Shown piece after piece: positions 5,675 to 63,178 of a stretch of DNA of 64,000 nucleotides. How positions within the stretch are numbered: the stretch's first letter is position 1; each line of letters starts with the position of its first letter. The notes under the pieces are model-generated. The model saw only the letters and a program-made list of their open reading frames with translations. It ran no database searches and was not told the DNA's origin. Origin of the DNA: an uncultured Bacteroidales bacterium (GTDB taxonomy: Bacteria; Bacteroidota; Bacteroidia; Bacteroidales; F082); NCBI GenBank assembly GCA_947166105.1, contig CAMVCZ010000001.1, forward strand, positions 62,001 to 126,000. Reading direction: 5' to 3'. The position numbers and the translations under genes were made by a program.

Positions 5675-5830
5675 GTCACAAAACATTCAAAACCCACAAA
5701 ACCATTTTTGCAAGGAAAGTCGCCAACCGGCTCCTTTCCCAGTCGCTGTTAGGCGCCGTTGCAACAGCGACTAGTTGAGAGCCGTTGCCTGTTTTCCCTT
5801 TTGTTTTGAATATTTTGCAGGTTTTGTGAC
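5675..5830. repeat. Structured dispersed repeat, copy 1 (GTCACAAAAC ends)
   Basis: A 156-bp element with inverted ends GTCACAAAAC (5675-5684) and GTTTTGTGAC (5821-5830). Inside are two hairpins. The first spans GGAAAG..GCCAACCGGC..CTTTCC (about 5714-5739). The second has 10-bp perfect arms AGTCGCTGTT (5741-5750) and AACAGCGACT (5763-5772). It contains no reading frame. A second copy with the same architecture is at 55833-55968. It fills most of the gap between the terminator and the ABC promoter. Confidence 0.7.
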
Positions 5831-51009: not shown

Positions 51010-52476
51010 TTATGCAACAGCTTCCTTTTCGGGAATGTTCTTCAATGTCTCGACGAGGAAGTCCCAGAAAGGCTGCACACTCTCGATGAGCAGGGCTTCG
51101 TCGGGGGAATGGGGGTGAACCAAGGTCGGGCCAAAGGAGACCATGTCCCAATTCGGGTACTTCGAGCCGAGGATGCCACATTCCAATCCGGCGTGGATGA
51201 CCATAATCTTGGCTTCCTTGCCGAACTTGTCGTGATAGACTTTCTTCATCAGATTAAGGATGGTCGAGTTGATGTTGGGTTTCCAGCCGGGATAATCACC
51301 AGTGGAGTAAGCCTCTGCACCATTGTCGGTGAGGTTCTTGCGGATTTGCTCGGCCAACTTGTCCTTGTCGGCATCGACAAGGCTGCGGGTGAGGGCAGCG
51401 CACACAATCTTGCCGTTTTCCATCTTCACCGTGGCCAGATTGCTGGAGGTTTCAGTGGTGCCTTCAAAGTCGTTTGACATGGCAATCACGCCGTTGGGAT
51501 AACGGGCGATGGCGCAGAACATGTTGTTTTGCGTCTTCAAGTCAATGACTTGCTTAGGCATTTCAGCGGGTTCGCAGAGAATGGCCAATTCAGGTTCGGT
51601 TTGGGCAAACTCTTCCTTGCAAATGCCTTCATACTCAGCGGCAAATTGTTTGAATTCCTCCTCCTTGTCGGCGGGAACCACAACAATGGCTTCGGCCTCT
51701 CTTGGGATGGCGTTGCGCAGGCTGCCTCCGTCGATGCAGGCGAGGCGCAGGCCGTATTTCTCAGCTGCCATCAGCAACATGGAGTTCAGCACTTTGTTGG
51801 CATTGGCGCGACCAAGGTTGATGTCCATGCCTGAGTGACCGCCTTTCAATCCCTTGACAAACAGGCGATAAGCCACCATTCCAGCGGGAACATCCTCGTA
51901 AGAAGGAGTCCAAGTGCCGATGGTGTCGACACCGCCGGCGCAACCCACATAAAGTTCGCCTTCGGTTTCGGAGTCCATGTTCATCAGGATGTCGCCTTGC
52001 AGCAGGCCGGGTTGCAGCTTGTTGGCACCCGTCATGCCTGTTTCCTCGTCAATGGTGAACAGGGCCTCAATCGGACCGTGTTGTAAATCATTGGCTTCGA
52101 GCACAGCCATTGCAGCGGCTGCACCCATGCCATTGTCGGCGCCGAGGGTGGTGCCGTTGGCCTTCACCCAGCCGTTTTCGATGTGGGTTTCAATCGGGTC
52201 GTTCTCGAAATCGTGTACCTTGTCGGCGTTCTTTTGCGGCACCATGTCCAAGTGGGCTTGCAGGATAACGCCCTTGCGGTTTTCCATGCCGGGCGTGGCG
52301 GGCTTGCGCATGATGACGTTGCCGCAGTCCTCAATGATGGTTTCCAATCCGTGTTCCTCGCCCCATTGTTTCATAAAGGCGATCACCTTTGCTTCTTTCT
52401 TCGAAGGGCGCGGAATCTGTGTCAAGCTGTAGAAATTCCTAAACACGCCATTCGGTTCCAATTCTTTGATTGTCAT
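51010..52476 (-). CDS. pepD: Aminoacyl-histidine dipeptidase (M20 family)
   Basis: 488 residues, the usual length for PepD. Metal-binding motifs of the di-zinc M20 fold are present: ILQAHLDMVPQ (near 78), GADNGMGAAAAMAVLEA (near 113) and TIDEETGMTGANKLQ (near 140). LKGGHSGMDINLGRANANK marks the lid domain and VIHAGLECGIL is the C-terminal zinc ligand segment. It hydrolyses dipeptides such as Xaa-His in the cytoplasm and supplies amino acids. It stands alone with its own terminator. Confidence 0.93.
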   Translation of the reverse strand: MTIKELEPNGVFRNFYSLTQIPRPSKKEAKVIAFMKQWGEEHGLETIIEDCGNVIMRKPATPGMENRKGVILQAHLDMVPQKNADKVHDFENDPIETHIENGWVKANGTTLGADNGMGAAAAMAVLEANDLQHGPIEALFTIDEETGMTGANKLQPGLLQGDILMNMDSETEGELYVGCAGGVDTIGTWTPSYEDVPAGMVAYRLFVKGLKGGHSGMDINLGRANANKVLNSMLLMAAEKYGLRLACIDGGSLRNAIPREAEAIVVVPADKEEEFKQFAAEYEGICKEEFAQTEPELAILCEPAEMPKQVIDLKTQNNMFCAIARYPNGVIAMSNDFEGTTETSSNLATVKMENGKIVCAALTRSLVDADKDKLAEQIRKNLTDNGAEAYSTGDYPGWKPNINSTILNLMKKVYHDKFGKEAKIMVIHAGLECGILGSKYPNWDMVSFGPTLVHPHSPDEALLIESVQPFWDFLVETLKNIPEKEAVA

Positions 52477-52635
52477 TTGTGATAGTTTATAGTTTAATGT
52501 TTAATTGTTGATTCTTTGTATGTTGTGAATGTTTGAGGTTGTCTTTCAAATGATTAAACGGTCCAACCGCCAACAACTCAACAACAAAAGGTCGGCTAAA
52601 ATACGAAAAAACTCTCACATTGAAACAAAAAGTCT

Positions 52636-52643
52636 TATTTTTG
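52636..52643 (+). promoter_or_regulatory. -7 element of the 119-residue lipoprotein gene
   Basis: TATTTTTG lies 20 bases before the ATG at 52663. The -33 TTG at the usual spacing is missing (nearest one is 13 bases upstream). Confidence 0.45.
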
Positions 52644-52662
52644 CGCCAAAATTCTGAACAAG

Positions 52663-53022
52663 ATGAAAAAGTATTTACCTCTTTTATTATTGGTGATGCT
52701 CGCGGTTGCGGGTTGCCAGCGTGGTCCTGCCACATACCAATACACTGATAATCCGCACGAAATTGTGGTCAATGCCGAGAAATTCGTCAATCAGGTTTCA
52801 AAGAAATCGAAGCATTACACAGCCGAGGAGTGGGATGCTGCCGTAGGGCAATTCGTCACCATGTGCAAGAACTATTATGAAAACAGCAAGTCCCTTACGA
52901 ATGAGGAGCAGATGAAGTTTGACAAGGCCCGCCTGAAGTTCATGGATGCCATTTCTGCCGCTGGCAAGGACGATGTTGCCCGCCGCGTAAAGGAAGATTA
53001 TGCAAGAATAATTGGGGATTGA
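52663..53022 (+). CDS. Small lipoprotein of unknown function
   Basis: 119 residues. The lipobox VAGC gives a mature N-terminal cysteine (about residue 18). The mature part is helical and charged (EEWDAAVGQFVTMCKNYY, ARLKFMDAISAAGKDDVARR) and contains no domain I recognise. Similar short helical lipoproteins are common in Bacteroidota. It converges on the YugP-like gene, six bases away. Confidence 0.7.
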   Translation: MKKYLPLLLLVMLAVAGCQRGPATYQYTDNPHEIVVNAEKFVNQVSKKSKHYTAEEWDAAVGQFVTMCKNYYENSKSLTNEEQMKFDKARLKFMDAISAAGKDDVARRVKEDYARIIGD

Positions 53023-53028
53023 GGCAAA

Positions 53029-53706
53029 TTACCTTCTGCTATTCCCCAATCCAATGTAATACAACAGCGAAGCCAACGATGATAAGGCTGCGACCACGTA
53101 TGTGCTTGCGGCCCAACCCAATGCTTCCTTGGCCTGTCCTACCTCGGCCTGACTGAGCGAGTTGGATGATTGTAGCCATGCCAAAGCACGGCGCGAGGCA
53201 TTGAACTCGACGGGCAAGGTGACGACGCTAAAAAGGAACACCAATGCGAACATGGCAATGCCTAACCAAAACAGGGCAGGGAAAGTGTTGATAATGAGCA
53301 GCCCGATGATGATGACAAACATCGACAATTTAGACGAAAAGCTGACGGCTGGCACCAAAGCCGAGCGTAATTTCAACGGTGCATAGCCTTCTTTATGCTG
53401 CACGGCGTGGCCACATTCGTGGGCAGCAACCGCAGCCGCCGCAACACTGTTCATGCGGTAGACATCTTCACTAAGGTTGACGGTCTTCTTGGTGGGGTCG
53501 TAATGGTCGGTGAGTTGTCCTTTGATGCAAGTCACCGAAACATCATAGATGCCGTTGTCGTTCAGCATTTTCTGCGCGATTTGCGCTCCTGTCATTCCGC
53601 CAGGCGAGAGCACTTTCGAGTACTTTGCGAATACGCTTTTCAGTTTCCATTGCACCAGCATCCCGACGATGCCGATGACGATGATAAGAATCCAGCTTGT
53701 GTTCAT
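53029..53706 (-). CDS. YugP-like zinc metalloprotease
   Basis: 225 residues. A helix at the N-terminus, then the catalytic HExxH-type motif in AVAAHECGHAVQHKEGY (His near 97), followed by helices SALVPAVSFSSKLSMFVIII and GIAMFALVFLFSVVTLPVEF and the conserved EFNASRRALAWL. YugP/DUF zinc-peptidase proteins are membrane-embedded; their substrates are unknown. A TATCTTTG element on the minus strand at 53732-53739 is a likely promoter. Confidence 0.88.
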   Translation of the reverse strand: MNTSWILIIVIGIVGMLVQWKLKSVFAKYSKVLSPGGMTGAQIAQKMLNDNGIYDVSVTCIKGQLTDHYDPTKKTVNLSEDVYRMNSVAAAAVAAHECGHAVQHKEGYAPLKLRSALVPAVSFSSKLSMFVIIIGLLIINTFPALFWLGIAMFALVFLFSVVTLPVEFNASRRALAWLQSSNSLSQAEVGQAKEALGWAASTYVVAALSSLASLLYYIGLGNSRR

Positions 53707-53773
53707 TGCTCCAATATTTTTATTTAAGGCGCAAAGATAGCGGAATTTTCTTGAGTATTGGTTGAAAATATCG

Positions 53774-53802
53774 TTGACCGACGATGTTTTTTCCTATTTT
53801 TG
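53774..53802 (+). promoter_or_regulatory. Promoter of the steroid-reductase-like cluster
   Basis: TTG at 53774-53776 (in TTGACC) and TATTTTTG at 53795-53802, 18 bases apart. Transcription would start near 53809, after the upstream in-frame ATG at 53784, which supports translation from 53823. Confidence 0.65.
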
Positions 53803-53822
53803 GCCTTTATTTCTCATCGAAA

Positions 53823-54590
53823 ATGTCCGAACATTCCTTTAACTTATACCTAATTGTCATGTCGGCCATCGCTGTGGTGGTCTTTGTGAGCCTATATTTC
53901 GTGGATGCAGGCTATGGCAAGTTCTACAACAAGAAATGGGGTCCGACGGTCAATAACAAATTGGGCTGGGTCTTGATGGAATCGCCTGTGTTTGTTGCCA
54001 TGTTGCTGCTTTGGCTCTTCTCCGATAGGCGCGGCGATTTGGTGCGGATAGCCTTCCTCTTTTTGTTTGAACTACACTACATCCAGCGGTCTTTTGTGTT
54101 TCCGTTCCGGATGAGGGGCAACAGCGTCATGCCGCTTTCGATTGTAGTTATGGGCGTGGTTTTCAATGTGTTGAACGCGCTGATGCAAGGCGGCTGGATT
54201 TTCTACATCTCGCCCGACGGCTACTATGGCCGCGATTGGCTCACCGACCCGCGTTTTATTGCTGGATTTTTGGTTTTCATCATTGGCATGTATATCAACA
54301 TTCAGTCCGACGACATTATCCGCAACCTTCGCAAGGATGGCGACACACGGCATTATCTGCCCAAGCAAGGCATGTTTCGCTATGTGACCTCTGCCAATTA
54401 TTTCGGTGAGTTTGTGGAATGGGTTGGCTTTGCGATACTTACATGGTCATGGGCGGGCGCGGTGTTCGCTTTGTGGACTTTCGCCAACCTTGGCCCTCGC
54501 GCCGACCATATCTATAAGATGTACCAAAGTGAGTTCGGCAAAGCCCTGGACACGAAGAAAGTCAAGAGAATCATACCTTTTATCTATTGA
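53823..54590 (+). CDS. 3-oxo-5-alpha-steroid 4-dehydrogenase (SRD5A) family membrane reductase
   Basis: 255 residues from the ATG at 53823, about six to seven helices. The residues used in human steroid 5-alpha-reductases are kept: glutamate in LMESPVF (Glu53), tyrosine in ELHYIQRSFVFPFRMRG (Tyr86) and glutamate in ANYFGEFVEWVGFAI (Glu196), plus the C-terminal KRIIPFIY and the NADPH-binding NLGPRADHIYKMY. The family saturates the C4-C5 double bond of 3-oxo-delta-4 steroids to the 5-alpha form with NADPH. The gene is directly followed (three bases) by a flavin enoate reductase and then a hydroxysteroid-dehydrogenase-like SDR. Steroid or bile acid use is an inference; other enones or fatty enoyl substrates are possible. 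Confidence 0.85.
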   Translation: MSEHSFNLYLIVMSAIAVVVFVSLYFVDAGYGKFYNKKWGPTVNNKLGWVLMESPVFVAMLLLWLFSDRRGDLVRIAFLFLFELHYIQRSFVFPFRMRGNSVMPLSIVVMGVVFNVLNALMQGGWIFYISPDGYYGRDWLTDPRFIAGFLVFIIGMYINIQSDDIIRNLRKDGDTRHYLPKQGMFRYVTSANYFGEFVEWVGFAILTWSWAGAVFALWTFANLGPRADHIYKMYQSEFGKALDTKKVKRIIPFIY

Positions 54591-54593
54591 GTC

Positions 54594-55829
54594 ATGGAAA
54601 AATCAATCATATTCACCCCTTGCGAAATCGGGCCTATCACCTTGCGAAACAGGGTAATACGCTCTGCGGCTTTTGAGAATATGGCCTACGGCAACCGCCC
54701 TTCCGACGACCTCTACAATTATCATGTGGCAGTGGCGCGAGGCGGTGTCGGCATGACAACTGTGGCCTACGCTGCGGTCAGCCAGTCGGGACTGTCGTTC
54801 AATGGCCAGCTTTGGATGCGCGAGGAGATTGTGCCCACCTTGAAAAACCTCACTGATGCCGTCCATAGTCATGGTGCCAAGGCTTCCATCCAATTGGGGC
54901 ATTGCGGCAACATGACGCACCGCTCTACCTGCGGCTGTATGCCTGTCGGGGCTTCGGGAGGTTTTAATTTGTATTCGCCGACCTTCGTCAGAAAACTTAG
55001 AAAGTCAGAGATTTACAAGTTGGTTCTTGATTTCGGCAAGGCCGTTGACCTTGCTCGCAAAGCTGGCTTCGACTGTGTGGAAATCCATGCTGGGCATGGT
55101 TACCTCATCAGTCAGTTTTTGTCGCCTTACACCAACCATCGCCGCGACGAGTTTGGCGGCAGCCTCGAAAACCAGATGCGTTTCATGCGTCTCGTCATCG
55201 AGGAGGTGATGCGCACGGCGGGCAACGACATGGCTGTGGTGGTCAAGGTGAACATGCACGACGGCTTCAAGAAGGGGATGCAACAAGAGGAGTGCCTTGA
55301 GGTGGCCAAAGAACTGGAACGCCTTGGTGTTCATGCACTTGTGCTGACAGCAGGCTTTGTCAGTAAGGCTCCGATGGAAGTGATGCGTGGCGCAATGCCG
55401 CTCAAGACCTTGCGCTATTACATGGATCCGAAGAAGTTCTGGTGGCTCAAGGCGGGATTGGCCTTGTTTGGCCGTAAAATGATTCCCACGGTGCCATTCA
55501 GTGAAGGCTATTTCTTGGAAGAAGCCAAGGTGTTCCGCAAAAACCTGAAATTGCCCTTGATTTATGTGGGCGGCATGGTTTCTCGGGAAAAAATGGAAGA
55601 GGTGCTCGATTCGGGCTTTGTGGCCTTGCAAATGGCACGCGCTTTGATAAACGACACTGAGTTTGTCAACAAACTGCATAGCGGCGAGGTAACCCGTAGC
55701 GAGTGCAAGCACTCCAACTATTGCATCGGGCGCATGTATACCTTGGAGATGAAATGTCACCGTTGCGTGGATGATGAACTGCCGAGGGCGATACGGAAAG
55801 AGATAAAAAAAGCGGAGAAAACATTATGA
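54594..55829 (+). CDS. Old-yellow-enzyme-family flavin enoate reductase, single domain
   Basis: 411 residues, a single TIM barrel without the FAD/NAD domain of two-domain members. Motifs: FTPCEIGPITLRNRVIRSAA (FMN side), SIQLGHCGNMT, the catalytic-type EIHAGHGYLISQFLSPYTNH followed by RDEFGGSLENQMRF, and VGGMVSREKMEEVLDSGFV. The C-terminus has CKHSNYCIGRMYTLEMKC, a spaced cysteine run that looks like the iron-sulfur motif of the family with one cysteine replaced by serine. Old-yellow enzymes reduce alpha,beta-unsaturated carbonyls. In gut bile-acid pathways related enzymes make the 5-beta product, so this enzyme could be the 5-beta partner of the neighbouring 5-alpha reductase. Confidence 0.88.
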   Translation: MEKSIIFTPCEIGPITLRNRVIRSAAFENMAYGNRPSDDLYNYHVAVARGGVGMTTVAYAAVSQSGLSFNGQLWMREEIVPTLKNLTDAVHSHGAKASIQLGHCGNMTHRSTCGCMPVGASGGFNLYSPTFVRKLRKSEIYKLVLDFGKAVDLARKAGFDCVEIHAGHGYLISQFLSPYTNHRRDEFGGSLENQMRFMRLVIEEVMRTAGNDMAVVVKVNMHDGFKKGMQQEECLEVAKELERLGVHALVLTAGFVSKAPMEVMRGAMPLKTLRYYMDPKKFWWLKAGLALFGRKMIPTVPFSEGYFLEEAKVFRKNLKLPLIYVGGMVSREKMEEVLDSGFVALQMARALINDTEFVNKLHSGEVTRSECKHSNYCIGRMYTLEMKCHRCVDDELPRAIRKEIKKAEKTL

Positions 55830-55832
55830 AAT

Positions 55833-55968
55833 GTCACAAAACCAGCAAAATGGACAAAACCTTTTTAGTTGGGAGGGAAAGCTGCCAACCGGCGGCTTTC
55901 CGGCGGCACACGGTTGTGTAGCCGCCATGATTCAAGTGAAGTTTTGAAGGTTTTGGGAGTTTTGTGAT
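55833..55968. repeat. Structured dispersed repeat, copy 2 (GTCACAAAAC ends)
   Basis: A 136-bp element with ends GTCACAAAAC (55833-55842) and GTTTTGTGAT (55959-55968). Hairpin 1 is GGAAAGCTGCC..GGCGGCTTTCC; hairpin 2 is GGCGGCACAC..GTGTAGCCGCC. The loop GCCAACCGGC of hairpin 1 is identical to copy 1 at 5675-5830, but the arms of hairpin 2 share almost no sequence with copy 1 while still pairing. It fills the gap between the flavin reductase and the SDR gene. Confidence 0.75.
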
Positions 55969-55980
55969 AAAGAATAAAGC

Positions 55981-56796
55981 ATGGATACGAAAAAATGGTT
56001 GAATCGGTTTCAGGAGGCACACGGGCGTCGGCCTTGGGCACTCATCACGGGCGGAAGTTCGGGGATGGGCTTGGAGTATGCCCGACAATTGGCTGAAATC
56101 GGTTGTAACTTGCTTTTAGTCAGCAATCAAAAGGAGGAACTTGAAAAGGTTTCCGAAGACTTGAAACGCAATTCTACCATACAAGTCGTTCCGCATTATC
56201 AGGATTTGTCCACCGAGTCTGCCGCTGTGGAATTATTCGGTTTTTGTCAAGCTGTAGGCCTTCAAATAGACATTCTCGTCAACAACGCAGGGATGTTCTT
56301 TTTCGAGGAACTGACCACGGAAAACGAAGCCAAAGCCTTGACCATGATGCGTTTGCATGTTTTTACCCCGACGAAATTGTGTGTCTTGTTTGGCGAGGAG
56401 ATGAAAAAGCGCGGTTACGGATACCTTATTAATATGTCGTCGATGGCGGCCAAGTTGCCGTGTCCAGGCATTACGGTCTATTCGGCCACCAAAGCCTATC
56501 TGAAAAGTTTCGGCAAGTCGCTCTATTTCGAGATGCGACCCTACGGCGTGGGTGTGACAACGGTCTGTCCCGCCGCCATTGCCACACCGCTTTACAGACT
56601 GAAACCCAATTTGTTGAATCTTGGCGTGAAAATTGGACTGATTGGCACGCCGCAATGGTTGGTTCGTAAGGCCTTGAATGGCATGATACGGAAGAAAAGA
56701 GTGGTGAAACCGGGCTTCATGAACTATTACTTGCCCCCGCTGATTGCCTTGTTACCCCAAAGATTAGTTGATAAGTTATGGCGAAAATTCAAGTGA
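55981..56796 (+). CDS. Short-chain dehydrogenase, 17-beta-HSD-like
   Basis: 271 residues, Rossmann fold. NAD(P)-binding ALITGGSSGMGLEYARQLAE, ILVNNAGMFFFEEL, then the catalytic serine in NMSSMAAK, and the YxxxK pair in ITVYSATKAYLKSFGKSLYFE (Tyr/Lys). The segment after it (VGVTTVCPAAIATPLYR) resembles 17-beta-hydroxysteroid dehydrogenases and the ketoacyl reductases of the same branch. With the upstream reductases it could oxidise or reduce a steroid hydroxyl (for example at C3). The start lies 13 bases after repeat copy 2. It overlaps the next gene by 19 bases. Confidence 0.85.
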   Translation: MDTKKWLNRFQEAHGRRPWALITGGSSGMGLEYARQLAEIGCNLLLVSNQKEELEKVSEDLKRNSTIQVVPHYQDLSTESAAVELFGFCQAVGLQIDILVNNAGMFFFEELTTENEAKALTMMRLHVFTPTKLCVLFGEEMKKRGYGYLINMSSMAAKLPCPGITVYSATKAYLKSFGKSLYFEMRPYGVGVTTVCPAAIATPLYRLKPNLLNLGVKIGLIGTPQWLVRKALNGMIRKKRVVKPGFMNYYLPPLIALLPQRLVDKLWRKFK

Positions 56797-57725
56797 CCAT
56801 ACTATGCCTGTTGTCCTGTTTGACTGCATCGGCCCAGCGTTACGAGAAAGTGCCTTTCGGCGATTTCAACCAATGGACAGTGCGCTATATTACTGAGTCT
56901 AAAGTGATTGGGGGTCAGGAAAAAATCGTGTACATGGTCGGCCCAACCGATACCATTCGGGGCAACGTTCCTTATTCTTACAAAAACACGATTTGGTCGT
57001 CGTCGAATGTCTTTGCCAAGGTGGTGGGCGTGGTGAAGACCAGCACCAATGTCACGCCCGATGATGGCCCGACGGGAAAATGCGCCAAATTGGTTTCCCA
57101 AATGGTGTCTTGCAAGGTGGCTGGCATTATCAATGTCAAGGTGATGGCTGCTGGGTCCATTTATTGGGGACAGACGCAGGAACCCGTTTCGGGTATCAGC
57201 AATCCCTACGCCGTGATGACTTGGGGCATACCTTTTACCAAACGACCGAAAGCGTTGGTTTTCAATTATAAGGCGAAGATTCCGAACACAGGAAAATTGA
57301 TTAGGAGCACCACATTCCGCGCCACCGAATTTGACGGCTACGACCCTGCCGAAGTCGTTCTCATATTGCAAAACCGCTGGGAAGACGAAGATGGCAACAT
57401 CCACGCCAAGCGGGTGGGAACGGCGATGTGCCAAGTGGAAAGGTCGACAGCAGATTGGATTATCGACCGTAGGCTGCCAGTCATTTACGGCGATGCGCGA
57501 AAACACAAGGATTATAAGCCGTACATGGATTTGATTACAGGCTATAAGAATATGTACGCTTTCAACAGCAAAGGCAAGAAGAAGCCCATCCTCGAAGAAG
57601 GCTGGGCCGATGCGGATTGCCCTGTCACTCACGCCATTTTGTGGTTCGCCTCGGGCAGTTGCGGTGCTTTCATCGGGGCTTTGGACAATGTGCTTTGGGT
57701 GGATGAGGTGAGATTGGAGTATTGA
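56778..57725 (+). CDS. PCMD-domain-like secreted protein
   Basis: 315 residues. A signal peptide (MAKIQVTILCLLSCLTASAQ) precedes a beta-rich domain with NQWTVRYITESK near the N-terminus, RPKALVFNYKAKIPNTGK in the middle and the C-terminal SGSCGAFIGALDNVLWVDEV. The latter is typical of PCMD (putative carbohydrate metabolism) domains, where a G-A/S-x-G-S/N-x-L-x-V-D-D/E strand closes the fold. Its function is unknown in Bacteroidota. It overlaps the SDR gene by 19 bases, so the two are translated from one mRNA; the functional link with steroid reduction is not clear. Confidence 0.65.
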   Translation: MAKIQVTILCLLSCLTASAQRYEKVPFGDFNQWTVRYITESKVIGGQEKIVYMVGPTDTIRGNVPYSYKNTIWSSSNVFAKVVGVVKTSTNVTPDDGPTGKCAKLVSQMVSCKVAGIINVKVMAAGSIYWGQTQEPVSGISNPYAVMTWGIPFTKRPKALVFNYKAKIPNTGKLIRSTTFRATEFDGYDPAEVVLILQNRWEDEDGNIHAKRVGTAMCQVERSTADWIIDRRLPVIYGDARKHKDYKPYMDLITGYKNMYAFNSKGKKKPILEEGWADADCPVTHAILWFASGSCGAFIGALDNVLWVDEVRLEY

Positions 57726-57737
57726 AAAACTTGAAAT

Positions 57738-60161
57738 TTATTTGTCTTCTTGTTCTTTTAGTTTGGCTTGGATGTCGACGATTCTTCCCTTAACTTTGAT
57801 TGTATCGGGATGGTCAGAGCCAAGTACAGCCTCTCGGATTGCATACGCTTGGTTGTAATATCCCAAGGCCTTATCGTAATTGCCAAGATTGCAGTAAACA
57901 TTTCCTATAACATGGTAACTGGAAGCAACATGGTGATGGTCTTCACCCAAAACTTTCAACCTGATAGTTAGTGCGGTTTCAAGATATTGTAATGCTTTTT
58001 CGTATTCCCCTTCAGCATTATAAATATAACCAATATTATGATATGCGGTGGCTACATCTGGATGATCTTTACCAAATAATCGTTCTGCTATTTCCAAACT
58101 TTTGTTAAAAGATTCCAAAGATTGTACAAGATCATCATTGTAATAATAAATAAAGCCTAAACTATTATATGTTGAAGCAACTGAGTAATCAGAACCATTG
58201 ATGGTAGTATCAATGGCTAAAGCTATATTAATGTGTTCGATTGCTTTTGTATAGTCACCCAAATAGCCATACATTTCACCTAACCGTTCGTGGCAATTAG
58301 AAACACTATTGTTGTTTAATCCAATAGTTGTTTCAAAAATGTGTAATGCCTCATAGTAATAATACATAGATTTTTCATAATCTTCAATTTCATAATAAAA
58401 AGTTCCCAAATCACCAATAGAAACCGCAGTGTTCTTATTCTCCCTGCCATAAAGGGTTTCATTGATGGACAAGGCGGAATTGTAACAATCCAATGCCAAA
58501 TCAAATTGGTCTGTCTTTAAATAGATTCCACCTAGGCTTTTAAATGCTTCGGCAAAGTATGGATGTTCCTTGTTGAACACTAAAGTTAAGGTTTGAATTG
58601 CTTTCTCTGTGTATTCCAATGCCTTGGAGTAATCTCCCTGATATATGTAATGATGTCCAATGTCTAAATAGGACTTGGCAACATCAGGATGATTGAAACC
58701 AAGCAGCTTTTCTCGAAGCTGCAATGCTGTTTCCTCGTGTTTTAATCCACTGGCGAAGTCTCCAATTCGATCATAAGACCTACCGATATTAGATAAAAGA
58801 GTCGCCGCTGTTGGAGATTCGGAATCTTCGCAAAGCGACAAGGCTTTTAGAAAATACTCCAATGCGGCTTTGTCCCAACCCATTCCAAAATAAACGGCTC
58901 CGATATTTGAGTATGTATATAAGAGTTGCGGATGATTCTCCCCATATATTTCATTTTTTATGTTTAATGACATATTGAAACATTCCAATGCTTTATTGTA
59001 TTCACCAATGTTAGAATAAACAAGCCCGATGTTGTTGTATATTGATGCAATGATAGTGCTGTACGTTTCATCTGCTGACGAAACAATAGTTAGGGCTTTT
59101 TCAAAACGATTTAACGCATCCGAATATTGCCCTAATTCTAAATAAATTTCTCCTAGGCTGTTGTATGAAATAGCAACTTGTATGTCCGTTTCACCATTTT
59201 GCGCAATGACGTTTCGTATAGCTCGTTGTTCGTATATTACGGCTTGGTCATAATGACCAAGATAGAAATACAAGTAATAGCCTGCATCATCAGACCATTC
59301 CACATTTGTAGTGTCTAAGCTTGCTCTCAATTCAAGGAAATAGGCAGCGGTATCGTTCAAATGTTGAGCAGCAAAAGTCTCATAATAACTATAGCAACGT
59401 TTAGCCAGTTCTTCCGTATCAGCGGAATATACTGCCTTGGCTTGGCTCAATTGTTCATCTTGTTCTTGAATGGCTTGGCCTTTTTTTCGTTGTTCTTTCA
59501 CTTGTTGGGTTACATTGCCTTTGGTTCTCAGAAGAGAGTCGGCTTTCACCAATTCGCCATTTTCAATGCAATAGGAAACTTGACGATAGAACTCGTCCAA
59601 TTGGTCGTAGTCCAATTCAGAATATCGTTTGGCCATATCCTTGATCAATTGGTCGTTTTGGCTAGTTTCTTCATATAGATTTTGCAATGCCTGCCGATAT
59701 TCTTCATCAGTAATCTTTTTTTGTTCTTTCAAAGCTTCAATCTCGTCTTCACGCTCCCGTAGTTGACGTTCGAGTGTACGCCGTATTTTCCGTTGTGCAT
59801 CCAATTCGTCTTGAAGCTGTTGATCAGGAGTTTCCATTACGATATAAAGCGGATTACAAGAATAATTATACAACCTGGGGCAAGCCTCCATATCCACCAA
59901 TTGATAGCCTTTCTTCTTTACAGAGTCCAAGCGGAATTGCGCTTCGGGTACGGGAAAAGAGAAAGCTCCGTCATCGGCATTTACTAATACGGTTGTACGA
60001 CCCTTAATGGAGACCGTTGCCCCTTTCAGGCCTTGGCCAGGTACAAGTTGGCCGTTCACCATGCGACCTTTGGTCTTAACATAACCCTGCTGGGTTTGTG
60101 TCTGTGCCGAAAGCATAATGCCGAGCACCATGATAGCAGCGAGGAGGAAAAATCTTTTCAT
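57738..60161 (-). CDS. TPR2: periplasmic tetratricopeptide-repeat protein
   Basis: 807 residues with a signal peptide (ending MLSAQ). The N-terminal part (about 20-110) is a carboxypeptidase-regulatory-like beta domain (GLKGATVSIKGRTTVLVNADD, GAFSFPV). A coiled coil follows (about 115-240: QQLQDELDAQRKIRRTLERQ, REREDEIEALKEQKKI). The rest is 11-12 tetratricopeptide repeats of 42 residues (for example NIGEYNKALECFNMSLNIKN), the kinesin-light-chain spacing. The N-terminal 260 residues are nearly the same as in the TPR protein at 61367-63178. It is the downstream gene of the locus, behind its own promoter. Confidence 0.85.
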   Translation of the reverse strand: MKRFFLLAAIMVLGIMLSAQTQTQQGYVKTKGRMVNGQLVPGQGLKGATVSIKGRTTVLVNADDGAFSFPVPEAQFRLDSVKKKGYQLVDMEACPRLYNYSCNPLYIVMETPDQQLQDELDAQRKIRRTLERQLREREDEIEALKEQKKITDEEYRQALQNLYEETSQNDQLIKDMAKRYSELDYDQLDEFYRQVSYCIENGELVKADSLLRTKGNVTQQVKEQRKKGQAIQEQDEQLSQAKAVYSADTEELAKRCYSYYETFAAQHLNDTAAYFLELRASLDTTNVEWSDDAGYYLYFYLGHYDQAVIYEQRAIRNVIAQNGETDIQVAISYNSLGEIYLELGQYSDALNRFEKALTIVSSADETYSTIIASIYNNIGLVYSNIGEYNKALECFNMSLNIKNEIYGENHPQLLYTYSNIGAVYFGMGWDKAALEYFLKALSLCEDSESPTAATLLSNIGRSYDRIGDFASGLKHEETALQLREKLLGFNHPDVAKSYLDIGHHYIYQGDYSKALEYTEKAIQTLTLVFNKEHPYFAEAFKSLGGIYLKTDQFDLALDCYNSALSINETLYGRENKNTAVSIGDLGTFYYEIEDYEKSMYYYYEALHIFETTIGLNNNSVSNCHERLGEMYGYLGDYTKAIEHINIALAIDTTINGSDYSVASTYNSLGFIYYYNDDLVQSLESFNKSLEIAERLFGKDHPDVATAYHNIGYIYNAEGEYEKALQYLETALTIRLKVLGEDHHHVASSYHVIGNVYCNLGNYDKALGYYNQAYAIREAVLGSDHPDTIKVKGRIVDIQAKLKEQEDK

Positions 60162-60191
60162 TAAGCTAATTCTTTTTGTTGTTTATGGCTG

Positions 60192-60220
60192 CAAATTTAA
60201 GAAATAATCCTGTGAACCAA
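60192..60220 (-). promoter_or_regulatory. Promoter of TPR2
   Basis: Minus-strand TAAATTTG at 60192-60199 and TTG (CAA at 60218-60220) with an 18-base spacing, located between the TIR gene stop and the TPR2 start. Confidence 0.55.
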
Positions 60221-60243
60221 TCGGTTTTTTGCAGGGAGAGGAG

Positions 60244-61374
60244 TTATTTGGTCAACAGCACGTCATTTGCTCCGGAAGGCATGGTGAGGATGCTGTCTTT
60301 CAAGGGAACAGGGGCCGACACACGATAGGTTTTTTTTTGCGCTTCCAATGGGATGAAAATGGAAACAAAACCTTTTTCATCTGTCGTGACCTCGAATCCT
60401 TCAACGAAAAGGGTGGTGTTGGCCAAGGATGTTTCAGATTCGGTGTTCCATGTGCAGAAATGGACATTACCGTAGACCTTTGGGTCGCGGTGAATATCTA
60501 TTGTTACGGATGGAGTTAGAGCAAAAACAGTGTCGAGAGAGAGGAAATTGCAACAGCTCACCGAAACTTGCACGGGCTTTTTTAGGAATTTGTGTGGTAT
60601 ATTGCTGAAAACCAAATTGCTGTTTAATGAGCAAATGGTGTCGCTCTTCGTCTCGTTGTCCAAGTGCATGGTTACGATGGCATCTTTCAGCGGTGGTAGG
60701 TTGTCGTTGTGGACGGAGGCTTCATTGATGTGTATTTCCGCATCGAAGGGCTGGCTTATGCGCCACACGCACAATAGGGCCGCAATTACGGCAATACCTC
60801 CTGCCGTCCATGCCGCTGCTATATGAACCAGTCTCCGACGATGCCGCTGCCAGATGGCATCGAACTCTACACCGAGCAGCTTGGAGATGAGTTGCACATA
60901 AGCGCGTTCCTTATTGAGCCAAGGTTGGCGGTAGACTTGCTCATGGATATTGGCCCCAAGGATTTCGGGCAGCCCCAATTTCTCAACAATGGGATTGAAA
61001 CATTCCGTCTTCGGGTCGTTGCTGTGAGGCGTACCATCTACGATGAAGAAATGGATGTTCTTCGTGCGGCCAAGGCGATAAAAGAACTCGATTTCCTTAC
61101 CCACCCATTCCGACCGTGCCGAGTTAGGAGAACAAATGACAATGAGATTGCGCGAGGACTTTAGTCGTTCCTGCAATTCCTCAGAAAGTTCCCCAGGCTG
61201 TATGTCGGTGGGAGCGAAAAACACGGGATTCATCGGCTTGCGTTCCCAGCCATGTTCGCTGCACAGTGTGGCGGGCATTCGGTAGTGCTCTAACTTCCTT
61301 TGCAGCCGCTTTCCCCATGCGGTGTCCTTCGAGCTGTAGCTGATGAAGGCGAAGTATTTGAAGGGGTTAGTCAT
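60244..61374 (-). CDS. Membrane-anchored TIR-domain protein
   Basis: 376 residues from the ATG at 61374; a longer open frame to 61473 lies in the preceding TPR gene. Residues 5 to about 150 are a TIR domain: FAFISYSSKDTAWGKRLQ (beta-A), FFAPTDIQPGELSEELQERL and NLIVICSPNSARSEWVGKEI. Glu94 (WVGKE) is at the position of the catalytic glutamate of TIR NAD hydrolases. A single membrane helix (182-204) is followed by a periplasmic part that ends in a beta domain (ANTTLFVEGFEVTTDEKGFV). The start overlaps the TPR1 stop by eight bases. The layout suggests a receptor with an NADase-capable cytoplasmic end; enzyme activity has not been shown for it. Confidence 0.88.
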   Translation of the reverse strand: MTNPFKYFAFISYSSKDTAWGKRLQRKLEHYRMPATLCSEHGWERKPMNPVFFAPTDIQPGELSEELQERLKSSRNLIVICSPNSARSEWVGKEIEFFYRLGRTKNIHFFIVDGTPHSNDPKTECFNPIVEKLGLPEILGANIHEQVYRQPWLNKERAYVQLISKLLGVEFDAIWQRHRRRLVHIAAAWTAGGIAVIAALLCVWRISQPFDAEIHINEASVHNDNLPPLKDAIVTMHLDNETKSDTICSLNSNLVFSNIPHKFLKKPVQVSVSCCNFLSLDTVFALTPSVTIDIHRDPKVYGNVHFCTWNTESETSLANTTLFVEGFEVTTDEKGFVSIFIPLEAQKKTYRVSAPVPLKDSILTMPSGANDVLLTK

Positions 61375-63178
61375 TCTCTTGTTTTTTAATTTTGGCTTTG
61401 ACAGTTTCCAGCGTTGCCCTGTCTTCAAGGGTGTAGGGATGCTCTGCGCCAAGGACTTCTTCATCGATGGCAACCGCTTGTTCGTAATAATCTACGGCTT
61501 TGGAGTAGTCTCCCAATTCTTCATATACTTTTCCAATGTAGTAATAGGAAGCCGCTAGAAGGAAATGCATTTCCCCAAAGATATTAAGCCGAATATCCAT
61601 AGCTTTTCGGAGACACCCAATAGCTTTTGAATACTCTCCATTTTGTATGTAGATTTTGCCTATTGAATGATATGTATTAGCCACGTCGGGATGCTCCTCC
61701 CCCAATATCTTTTTCCTGATGGCGAGAGCCTTGTTACTGTACTCCATGGCCTTTTCATAGACGCCAAGTGCGTAATAGTCTGCGCCTATTCCATAGTATG
61801 ATGAAGCCACGTCGGGATGCTCCTCCCCGAATATCTTTTTTCTGATGGCGAGTGCCTTGTTATCGTACTCCAAGGCCTTTTCGTAGATTCCAAGTGCGCA
61901 ATAGTCTGAGCCTATTTCGCAGTATGACTGAGCCACGTCGGGATGCTCCTCGCCAAACACCTTTTTCCTGATGGCGAGTGCATTGTTCTGGTACTCCAAG
62001 GCCTTTTCGTAGTCGCCGAGGACGTAATAGACAACGCCTATATTGTTGTATGAGTGAGCCACATCGGGATGCTCCTCGCCGAACACCTTTTTACTGATGG
62101 CGAGTCCCTTGTTTGCGTACTCCAAGGCCTTTTCGTAGTCGCCGAGGACGTAATAGACATTGCCGATGTAATTGTAAGACGACGCCCCTTTACCGCTTTG
62201 TTCCCCATATTGAACGATGGACCATCTCAATGCTCTTTGGAAATAGGATAAAGCTTTGTTGTAATCCGCGATATAATAATTATAACACACCCCCGACTCC
62301 ATCTGCCATTCAACATTTGTCGTATCCAAACTCGCCCGCAATTCAAGGTAATACGCTGCCGTGTCGTTCATGTGTTGTGCTGCAAAGGTCTCGTAAAAAC
62401 TGTAGCAGCGACGAGCCAATTCCTCTATGTCGGCAGCATGAACTGCCTTGGCTTGGTTGAGTTGGGCTTCCTGCTCTTGGATGGCTTGGCCCTTGCGCAG
62501 TTGGGCTTCCACCTGTTGGGAAACATCGCCTTTGGTTTTTAGCAGCGAGTCGGCCTTCACCAACTCACCGTTCTCGATGCAATAGGACACTTGGCGGTAG
62601 AACTCGTCCAATTGGTCGTAGTCCAACTCGGAGTAGCGTTTGGCCATGTCCTTGATGAGCTGCTCGTTGTTCTCTTGGTCTTGGTAAAGCTTCTGCAAGG
62701 CTTGGCGGTATTCTTCTTCTGAGATTTGCTGTTGCTCTTTCAAAGCTTCAATCTCATCCTCGCGTTCTTGGAGTTGTTTTTGCAGGTTGCGGCGTATCTT
62801 TCGCTCGGCGTTCAATTTGTCCTGCAACTGTTGCTCAGGGGTCTCCATCACAATATAGAGTGGATTGATGGAGTAGTTGTAGGTTTTTGGGCAGGCATCC
62901 ATGTCAACCAACTGATAACCTTTCTTCTTAACAGAATCCAAACGGAATTGTTGTTCAGTGACAGGGAAGGAGAATGTGCCGTCGTCTGTGTTCACTAATA
63001 CCGTGGTTCTACCTTTAATTGAAACCGTTGCCCCTTTTAGGCCCTGGCCAGGAATAAGCTGGCCATTCATCATACGGCCTTTTGTTTTTACATAGCCTTG
63101 TTGGGTTTGTGCTGTAACTCTGAGGCCTGTCAGCATGACAATTAATAGTAACCATGTTCTTAAATAGACTTTGTTCAT
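61367..63178 (-). CDS. TPR1: periplasmic tetratricopeptide-repeat protein
   Basis: 603 residues. Signal peptide (ending LRVTAQ), then the same carboxypeptidase-regulatory-like beta domain, coiled coil (QQLQDKLNAERKIRRNLQKQ) and CIENGELVKADSLL segment found in TPR2. The C-terminal half has about seven 42-residue TPRs. Four consecutive ones are almost identical at residue level (GEEHPDVA..Y..IG, EKALEY.NKALAIRKK) and also at DNA level, pointing to recent internal duplication. It is the first gene of the TPR-TIR pair, overlapping the TIR gene. Confidence 0.85.
   Translation of the reverse strand: MNKVYLRTWLLLIVMLTGLRVTAQTQQGYVKTKGRMMNGQLIPGQGLKGATVSIKGRTTVLVNTDDGTFSFPVTEQQFRLDSVKKKGYQLVDMDACPKTYNYSINPLYIVMETPEQQLQDKLNAERKIRRNLQKQLQEREDEIEALKEQQQISEEEYRQALQKLYQDQENNEQLIKDMAKRYSELDYDQLDEFYRQVSYCIENGELVKADSLLKTKGDVSQQVEAQLRKGQAIQEQEAQLNQAKAVHAADIEELARRCYSFYETFAAQHMNDTAAYYLELRASLDTTNVEWQMESGVCYNYYIADYNKALSYFQRALRWSIVQYGEQSGKGASSYNYIGNVYYVLGDYEKALEYANKGLAISKKVFGEEHPDVAHSYNNIGVVYYVLGDYEKALEYQNNALAIRKKVFGEEHPDVAQSYCEIGSDYCALGIYEKALEYDNKALAIRKKIFGEEHPDVASSYYGIGADYYALGVYEKAMEYSNKALAIRKKILGEEHPDVANTYHSIGKIYIQNGEYSKAIGCLRKAMDIRLNIFGEMHFLLAASYYYIGKVYEELGDYSKAVDYYEQAVAIDEEVLGAEHPYTLEDRATLETVKAKIKKQEND

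Follow-up and report, generated by a model that had tools for sequence, protein, structure and literature searches.

A probable steroid A-ring reduction cassette of gut-Bacteroidales type in a rumen lineage

The closest described systems are gene clusters of gut Bacteroidota encoding a steroid 5-alpha-reductase (5AR), a flavin-dependent 5-beta-reductase and a 3-beta-hydroxysteroid dehydrogenase (3-beta-HSDH). Parabacteroides merdae, Odoribacter laneus and Bacteroides dorei are reported to turn 3-oxo-delta4-lithocholic acid (3-oxo-delta4-LCA) into isoallolithocholic acid (isoalloLCA), and disruption of 5AR in P. merdae, where a predicted 3-beta-HSDH and an NADH:flavin oxidoreductase share its cluster, abolishes derivatives of allolithocholic acid (PMC10382948). 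A review orders the steps as a 5-beta-reductase making 3-oxo-delta4-LCA, followed by 5AR and 3-beta-HSDH (PMC12916643); in this order the flavin enzyme would run backwards. Here we describe a locus of four genes in a window of 64,000 nucleotides (the whole stretch of DNA analysed) from an uncultured Bacteroidales bacterium. The genes encode a 5AR, an old yellow enzyme (OYE, a flavin ene-reductase), a short-chain dehydrogenase (SDR) and a protein with a PCMD domain. We consider it likely that they form a cassette for reduction of the steroid A-ring, of the type found in gut Bacteroidales; the assignment is based on computed gene identity, intact catalytic residues, conserved linkage and the clade of the 5AR. 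The 5AR-OYE pair is known; the third gene, the addition of PCMD and the rumen habitat set the locus apart.

Comparison with the clusters of Parabacteroides and Phocaeicola

Judged by sequence, 5AR and OYE of the window are homologous to their counterparts in the described Bacteroidota cluster, and the third gene is not. We denote the SDR lineage of the window SDR-A and the lineage of the Parabacteroides and Phocaeicola clusters SDR-B. The window shares with these clusters an adjacent 5AR and OYE in identical order and a 5AR of the same clade. The identities are 52–60% (5AR) and 61–65% (OYE) in a comparison that comprises the fetched Parabacteroides loci and Phocaeicola massiliensis, none of these loci being named as P. 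merdae. Phocaeicola massiliensis, a member of the genus to which B. dorei is now assigned as Phocaeicola dorei, has a 5AR-OYE-SDR-B locus with a single-domain OYE of about 410 amino acids (aa), and its pair is 59% (5AR) and 65% (OYE) identical to that of the window. The original prediction of an adjacent 5AR and flavin reductase, as in gut Bacteroidales, is borne out by the same pair in this species and in Parabacteroides. The window differs in carrying SDR-A instead of SDR-B, in the additional PCMD gene, in the lack of an RND efflux pump in the operon, and in its rumen habitat.

As Parabacteroides we took 38 genomes of one genus whose RND protein shares 86% identity with the one in Parabacteroides distasonis; 19 of them harbor 5AR. 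The order 5AR-OYE-SDR-B is found in 14 of the 15 fetched Parabacteroides loci, and the remaining locus (L225) shows 5AR and the pump with no OYE or SDR. In P. distasonis (NZ_OY725754.1) an OYE-SDR pair consists of an OYE with 63% identity to the window and an SDR of the SDR-A type (45%); the record has no 5AR match, and the pair sits behind TetR-TolC-RND. An RND pump likewise precedes the steroid-reduction genes in 8 of the 15 Parabacteroides loci, with TetR in 5 (loci L221–L227, L234 and L206, P. distasonis included). This position suggests steroid-induced export together with reduction.

A more distant OYE relative (38%) is located in Sphingobium TomTYG65 between a gene annotated as 3-beta hydroxysteroid dehydrogenase and a beta-xylosidase. 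The catabolism of steroidal saponins in Sphingobium is aerobic, unlike the situation of the window. TomTYG65 is an isolate of an alpha-tomatine study, whose main text does not discuss the OYE relative and contains neither 'flavin' nor 'reductase' (PMC10653915).

Identity and conservation of the four genes

All four proteins match their Pfam families above cut-off, with E-values of 5e-44 (Steroid_dh), 2e-56 (Oxidored_FMN), 2e-39 (adh_short) and 1.7e-20 (PCMD). By its sequence features, the first gene encodes a true SRD5A-type steroid 5-alpha-reductase. The match to PF02544 (Steroid_dh) reaches 150.3 bits (cut-off 22.6). The predicted key residues Glu53, Tyr86 and Glu196, which we take to be the catalytic and NADPH residues, are conserved without exception in an alignment of 142 sequences that includes the window, and each corresponds to its counterpart in 7C83 and 7BW1. 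These two structures, PbSRD5A (7C83) and human SRD5A2 (7BW1), are members of the same family with 40% and 36% identity, respectively; in the tree they form separate long branches whose exact placement is unsure. The tree comprises 58 hand-chosen rows, of which the three PDB rows are flagged as long branches, and places the window in a clade of 45 rows (support 100/99) together with five Parabacteroides genomes and Phocaeicola massiliensis. A grouping with DUF1295 or lipid enzymes, named beforehand as the outcome that would speak against a steroid reductase, is not observed: in addition to the placement in this clade, the 5AR scores 185 bits to 7C83 (E 1.3e-53) and 132 bits to the human enzyme, versus 38 bits to the enoyl-CoA reductase art-1 and 30 bits to DUF1295. 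By the scores to 7C83 and art-1, we reject a lipid enoyl reductase.

These scores also bear on the possibility that the cassette serves endogenous lipids (enoyl, polyprenol or hopanoid-like) rather than external steroids. PF02544 includes enoyl-CoA and polyprenol reductases as well, and a second Bacteroidales 5AR clade, separate in the tree (99/94) and 35–41% identical, could be biosynthetic: in 13 of its 21 loci (L168–L188) the preceding gene belongs to one family of extended SDRs, whose one scanned member, in L169, matches the 3-beta-HSD/isomerase family PF01073 with 81 bits (Epimerase being higher, 112). In L172, a single scanned locus, a transporter of the MMPL/Patched type follows 5AR. 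The second clade is possibly a separate sterol or lipid pathway. For the window, however, action on own lipids is very unlikely. Besides the gap between 38 and 185 bits, the 5AR gene is present in only 12 of 23 other genomes of the same genus (several of them incomplete), a patchy presence that makes it look accessory and is unlike an essential lipid step, and its partners include an exported-looking protein and, in Parabacteroides, an efflux pump.

The linkage of the four genes was examined in the best 80 of 363 loci from a contig scan, none of which is from a named human-gut species; as several loci are cut by contig ends, the counts are lower bounds. Among these nearest loci, OYE is present in 79, SDR-A in 74, PCMD in 42, SDR-B in 30 and a glycosidase in 3, and the OYE start lies 700–1100 nucleotides (nt) from the 5AR start in 78. 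Across the order, 39 further loci with a 5AR of this gut clade (from 37 genomes, two of which give two each) contain OYE in 31 cases (30 at 700–1100 nt), SDR-A and SDR-B in 19 each, and PCMD in 3, on the opposite strand. The loci of the second 5AR clade contain one OYE-like match in 21 (33% identity, 6 kb away, other strand) and no PCMD. Among 294 Bacteroidales genomes, this OYE is found in 35 of the 37 genomes of the gut 5AR clade (Fisher p 2e-34), which span 17 families, and PCMD in 27 of the 37 (p 6e-18), mostly not beside 5AR, as well as in 19 genomes without 5AR; both p-values ignore shared ancestry. SDR-B is present in 23 of the 37, and in four of the 35 genomes (G026, G138, G226, G295) OYE is located away from 5AR. 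We assigned the clade split from search rows, with 21 of the 28 second-clade genomes checked by locus and 7 by profile score only; the sets leave out the partial matches of G061 and G104, all weaker rows, and G000 (N is then 293, with the picture unchanged). From synteny and co-occurrence counts, the four genes are a conserved cassette, more than expected by chance.

The third gene had been likened to that of the known cluster, which is not supported: SDR-A and SDR-B share 24% identity, versus 45% between SDR-A and the SDR following OYE in P. distasonis, and SDR-A is therefore rejected as an orthologue of the SDR in the Parabacteroides and Phocaeicola clusters. A search of the window genome (97% complete) did not recover SDR-B: the best match has 26% identity and none reaches 1e-40, a threshold at which 34 other genomes match. 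The 3Beta_HSD profile has 6 matches in the window genome, five of them above cut-off; the profile also matches all 14 control genomes. SDR-A retains T23, G24, G28 and G30 (TGxxxGxG) and S154, Y167 and K171 in 94 of 94 members and is a probable 3-oxo-steroid reductase/3-hydroxysteroid dehydrogenase. Both SDRs co-occur in 29 of the 80 nearest and 12 of the 39 further loci (counted by eye), therefore they probably do different things, for example 3-alpha and 3-beta reduction. Two lineages of SDRs, both readily labelled '3-beta-HSDH', can thus be told apart. We note that residue 126 of SDR-A, presumably the position of the catalytic-tetrad Asn of SDRs, is occupied by His in 92 of 94 members and by Gln in the other 2, a signature of the lineage.

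PCMD had been set aside in the original prediction. In this lineage it belongs to the module, in view of the 42 loci given above and of its position where the order is rearranged: five loci (L079, L081, L084, L089, L094) have the order SDR-A, PCMD, 5AR, OYE, such that PCMD stays with SDR-A through rearrangement. The protein matches PF13201 with 74.2 bits (cut-off 28), and its beta-sandwich model has a pLDDT of 89.6. The four top Foldseek entries (BT_2081, BT3745, BVU_0247 and BACOVA_00087; E 2e-7 to 8e-7, TM 0.41–0.49) are Bacteroides proteins labelled as putative glycoside hydrolases, followed by the carbohydrate-binding modules CBM28 and CBM27 (E 3e-3). Our guess for its role is substrate capture.

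The OYE carries the motif H165/H168/Y170 and a C-terminal tail C371-x5-C377-x10-C388, after which the protein ends, with no FAD/NAD(P) domain behind the barrel; its structure model has a pLDDT of 90.6. The three tail cysteines are invariant in 110 of 110 sequences. The remaining, second cysteine position is Ser374 in the window, and across the alignment Ser in 93, Val, Thr or Lys in 16 and not shown in one. Four cysteines in this arrangement form the 4Fe-4S site of BaiCD-type enzymes. The window protein differs from the type of BaiCD, 2,4-dienoyl-CoA reductase and trimethylamine dehydrogenase in the missing FAD/NAD domain and the replaced second cysteine. It constitutes a truncated subclass with degenerate cysteines and is a near-constant partner of gut 5ARs.

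Several results weigh against a steroid function of OYE and SDR-A, in addition to the shared ancestry behind the p-values. OYE scores 193.7 bits with the BaiCD model NF041087, whose equivalog cut-off is 825; together with the missing domain and the degenerate motif, this rules out BaiCD itself and membership in the BaiCD family. No characterised 5-beta-reductase of the single-domain kind was found, and OYE is also present in 8 of the 28 second-clade genomes. The best PDB match of SDR-A is an alcohol dehydrogenase (6zdz, 4e-23), while three chains labelled 3-alpha(or 20-beta)-HSDH appear at about 3e-15 among its 46 PDB matches; position and epimer of its reaction are guesses, because no characterised close relative is among these hits. 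It is conceivable that OYE is a general ene-reductase for quinones, oxylipins or xenobiotics that shares the operon, with 5AR alone being steroid-specific. No OYE family model reached its cut-off on the window protein, amine dehydrogenases and naphthoyl-CoA reductase are among its closest folds, and 9 of the 44 genomes with OYE lack the gut 5AR clade (8 of these 9 have a second-clade 5AR). We nevertheless regard a general ene-reductase as unlikely, in view of its presence in nearly all gut-5AR genomes and its adjacency to 5AR in most loci; moreover, P. distasonis keeps the OYE-SDR pair beside a pump in a record that has no 5AR match, which speaks for a shared pathway. The interpretation as a steroid cluster hence stands in kind, for the family and clade of the 5AR, and is wrong or unproven for the third gene, the family of the OYE and the bile-acid substrate.

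Proposed reactions and natural substrates

In the proposed cassette, the membrane enzyme 5AR would use NADPH to convert 3-oxo-delta4 steroids irreversibly into flat 5-alpha 3-oxo steroids. OYE would act on the same bond with 5-beta stereochemistry, probably reversibly, such that both enzymes together could flip 5-beta steroids to 5-alpha steroids via a 3-oxo-delta4 intermediate. SDR-A would then interconvert 3-oxo and 3-hydroxy groups, and PCMD, once exported, probably binds or handles the substrate outside the inner membrane. These reactions, the stereochemistry and direction of OYE, the position and epimer for SDR-A and the role of PCMD are predictions from gene content.

The window genome has a size of 3.5 Mb. 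Its nearest titled contigs belong to the metagenome-assembled genomes (MAGs) RUG13092 and RUG11504, with 98% identity in 5AR. Forestomach or abomasum is indicated for 48 of the 80 nearest records: 24 carry RUG names, which we take to stand for rumen uncultured genomes, and another 24 mention rumen, reticulum, omasum or abomasum, whereas 5 refer to duodenum, cecum, colon or horse faeces and the other 27 give nothing specific (all read by eye). With the nearest relatives largely from the forestomach, bile acids are doubtful as the natural substrate.

The locus might be the known bile-acid cluster, kept for hindgut or reflux bile acids, with the rumen merely the sampling site of the MAGs; we hold this to be possible, though less than probable. 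Its 5AR and OYE are homologous to those of the Parabacteroides and Phocaeicola cluster, some relatives come from the intestinal sites listed above, isoalloLCA is reported from the large intestine of cows (PMC9750977), and forestomach bacteria also reach the hindgut. Sheep rumen contents supplied with swine bile acids formed allocholic acid (alloCA), 3-beta-cholic acid (3-beta-CA) and isolithocholic acid, which implies that 5-alpha and 3-beta activities exist in rumen communities; the text of that study contains neither '5AR' nor 'isoallo', and according to its authors the rumen does not normally contain bile acids (PMC11193847). The window genome furthermore encodes a divergent protein of the choloylglycine hydrolase family (Pfam 54.5 bits, cut-off 20.4), so that exposure to bile salts is possible. 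This protein cuts both ways, being distant from known enzymes: it scores 75.4 bits where the NCBIfam C45 model requires 85, matches no bile salt hydrolase model at 1e-10, and has its best PDB choloylglycine hydrolase match at 4e-7 over about 94 residues. The missing SDR-B and the forestomach records also stand against a bile-acid cluster.

Plant sterols or sapogenins of the diosgenin/sarsasapogenin type are more likely natural substrates than bile acids, because bile is normally absent from the rumen. Diosgenin saponins undergo hydrolysis in sheep, and oxidation and reduction of the sapogenins yield epismilagenin, smilagenone, smilagenin and tigogenin (PMC10385484; PMC8955086); sapogenin reduction and C-3 epimerisation in this animal are documented (PMC10385484). 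The resulting pattern of 5-beta, 5-alpha and 3-epimeric products would be expected from OYE, 5AR and an SDR, making the cassette a candidate for these conversions in the rumen. Rumen conversions of the epismilagenin type have been tied to hepatogenous photosensitisation of grazing ruminants (titles cited in PMC10385484). In the literature searched, where subscription papers were mostly outside coverage, no gene for rumen sapogenin conversion or for the formation of alloCA and 3-beta-CA was found.

Tentatively, and as a rather unlikely proposal in its full form, the cassette may supply the missing genes for reducing the rings of steroidal sapogenins and plant sterols and epimerising them at C-3 in the rumen, and the bile-acid cluster of the human gut a re-use of an older module for plant-steroid detoxification. 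PCMD, in equine relatives together with a 6-hairpin glycosidase, would capture and deglycosylate saponins, OYE and 5AR would set the 5-beta or 5-alpha ring, and SDR-A, with or without SDR-B, would set the 3-hydroxyl. The glycosidase, which matches PF17389 (30 bits) and PF22422 (35 bits) above cut-off, is located between OYE and SDR-A in three MAGs, two from horse faeces and one assigned to Candidatus Limimorpha equi. What counts against the proposal, apart from the hindgut passage and the choloylglycine-hydrolase-family protein, is that only 3 of the 80 loci contain this enzyme and that a search without positive control did not find it in the window genome; the full glycosidase story is rejected for the window. 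A GH78 rhamnosidase elsewhere on the contig, outside the window, is not specific to the cassette. The four genes make the conversion of sapogenins and of bile acids in the rumen directly testable.

Gene layout and neighbouring elements

The four predicted open reading frames (ORFs) are confirmed in their positions by the ORF list and the sequence (Table 1). As predicted, a single-domain OYE starts three bases past the 5AR stop; a gap of 151 nt separates its stop from SDR-A, and SDR-A and PCMD overlap by 19 nt.

Table 1. Features of the cassette, in window coordinates
Feature	Position	Strand	Evidence
Promoter-like motif, TTG ... TAnnTTTG	53774..53802	+	sequence; comparison of upstream regions
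5AR, SRD5A-type 3-oxo-steroid 5-alpha-reductase (by sequence), 255 aa, membrane enzyme (location by family)	53823..54590	+	PF02544, 7C83, tree, residues
OYE, putative FMN ene-reductase, 411 aa, without FAD/NAD domain	54594..55829	+	PF00724, model, alignment, invariant residues
Palindromic intergenic element, 151 nt	55830..55980	.	RNA fold; copies; L019 junction
SDR-A, short-chain dehydrogenase, S154/Y167/K171	55981..56796	+	PF00106, P. distasonis SDR, conservation
PCMD, beta-sandwich protein, 315 aa, signal peptide judged by eye	56778..57725	+	PF13201, model, Foldseek

The predicted promoter is confirmed in part. TTG (at 53774) and TAnnTTTG (53795–53802), together presumably the Bacteroidales-type promoter consensus, are present, and TAnnTTTG occurs at -25 to -40 from the 53823-type start in 42 of 50 upstream regions, window included; a sigma-70 scan called no site at the motif. 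The 50 regions belong to those of 141 loci that have at least 76% identity, lie on the plus strand, match from residue 1 and have sufficient upstream DNA. We prefer ATG 53823 as the start of 5AR: an ORF beginning at ATG 53784 would overlap that motif, and only 53823 fits the residue numbers of the original prediction.

A megablast of window positions 52000–60200 against plasmids gave no match, and no Rfam family was found over 53700–57800. The palindromic element has a second copy at 5676–5829; the copies measure about 130–155 nt, have periodic CAAAAC/GTTTTG arms and RNA fold z-scores of -6.9 and -4.5. Its position is the OYE/SDR gap in the window, L051, L056 and L060 and the 5AR/OYE gap in L002 and L044; the OYE/SDR junction of the nearest relative (L019) lacks it. 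It looks like a small mobile element (MITE/REP-like) that landed repeatedly in the operon.

Downstream genes in relatives encode DUF5606/DUF6852 and pyrK- and pyrD-like proteins, which we take as neighbours rather than partners. In the window, positions 57738–63178 on the minus strand encode two long TPR-like proteins with similar N-terminal halves that flank a third protein, whose own N-terminal half reads like a TIR domain (all by eye).

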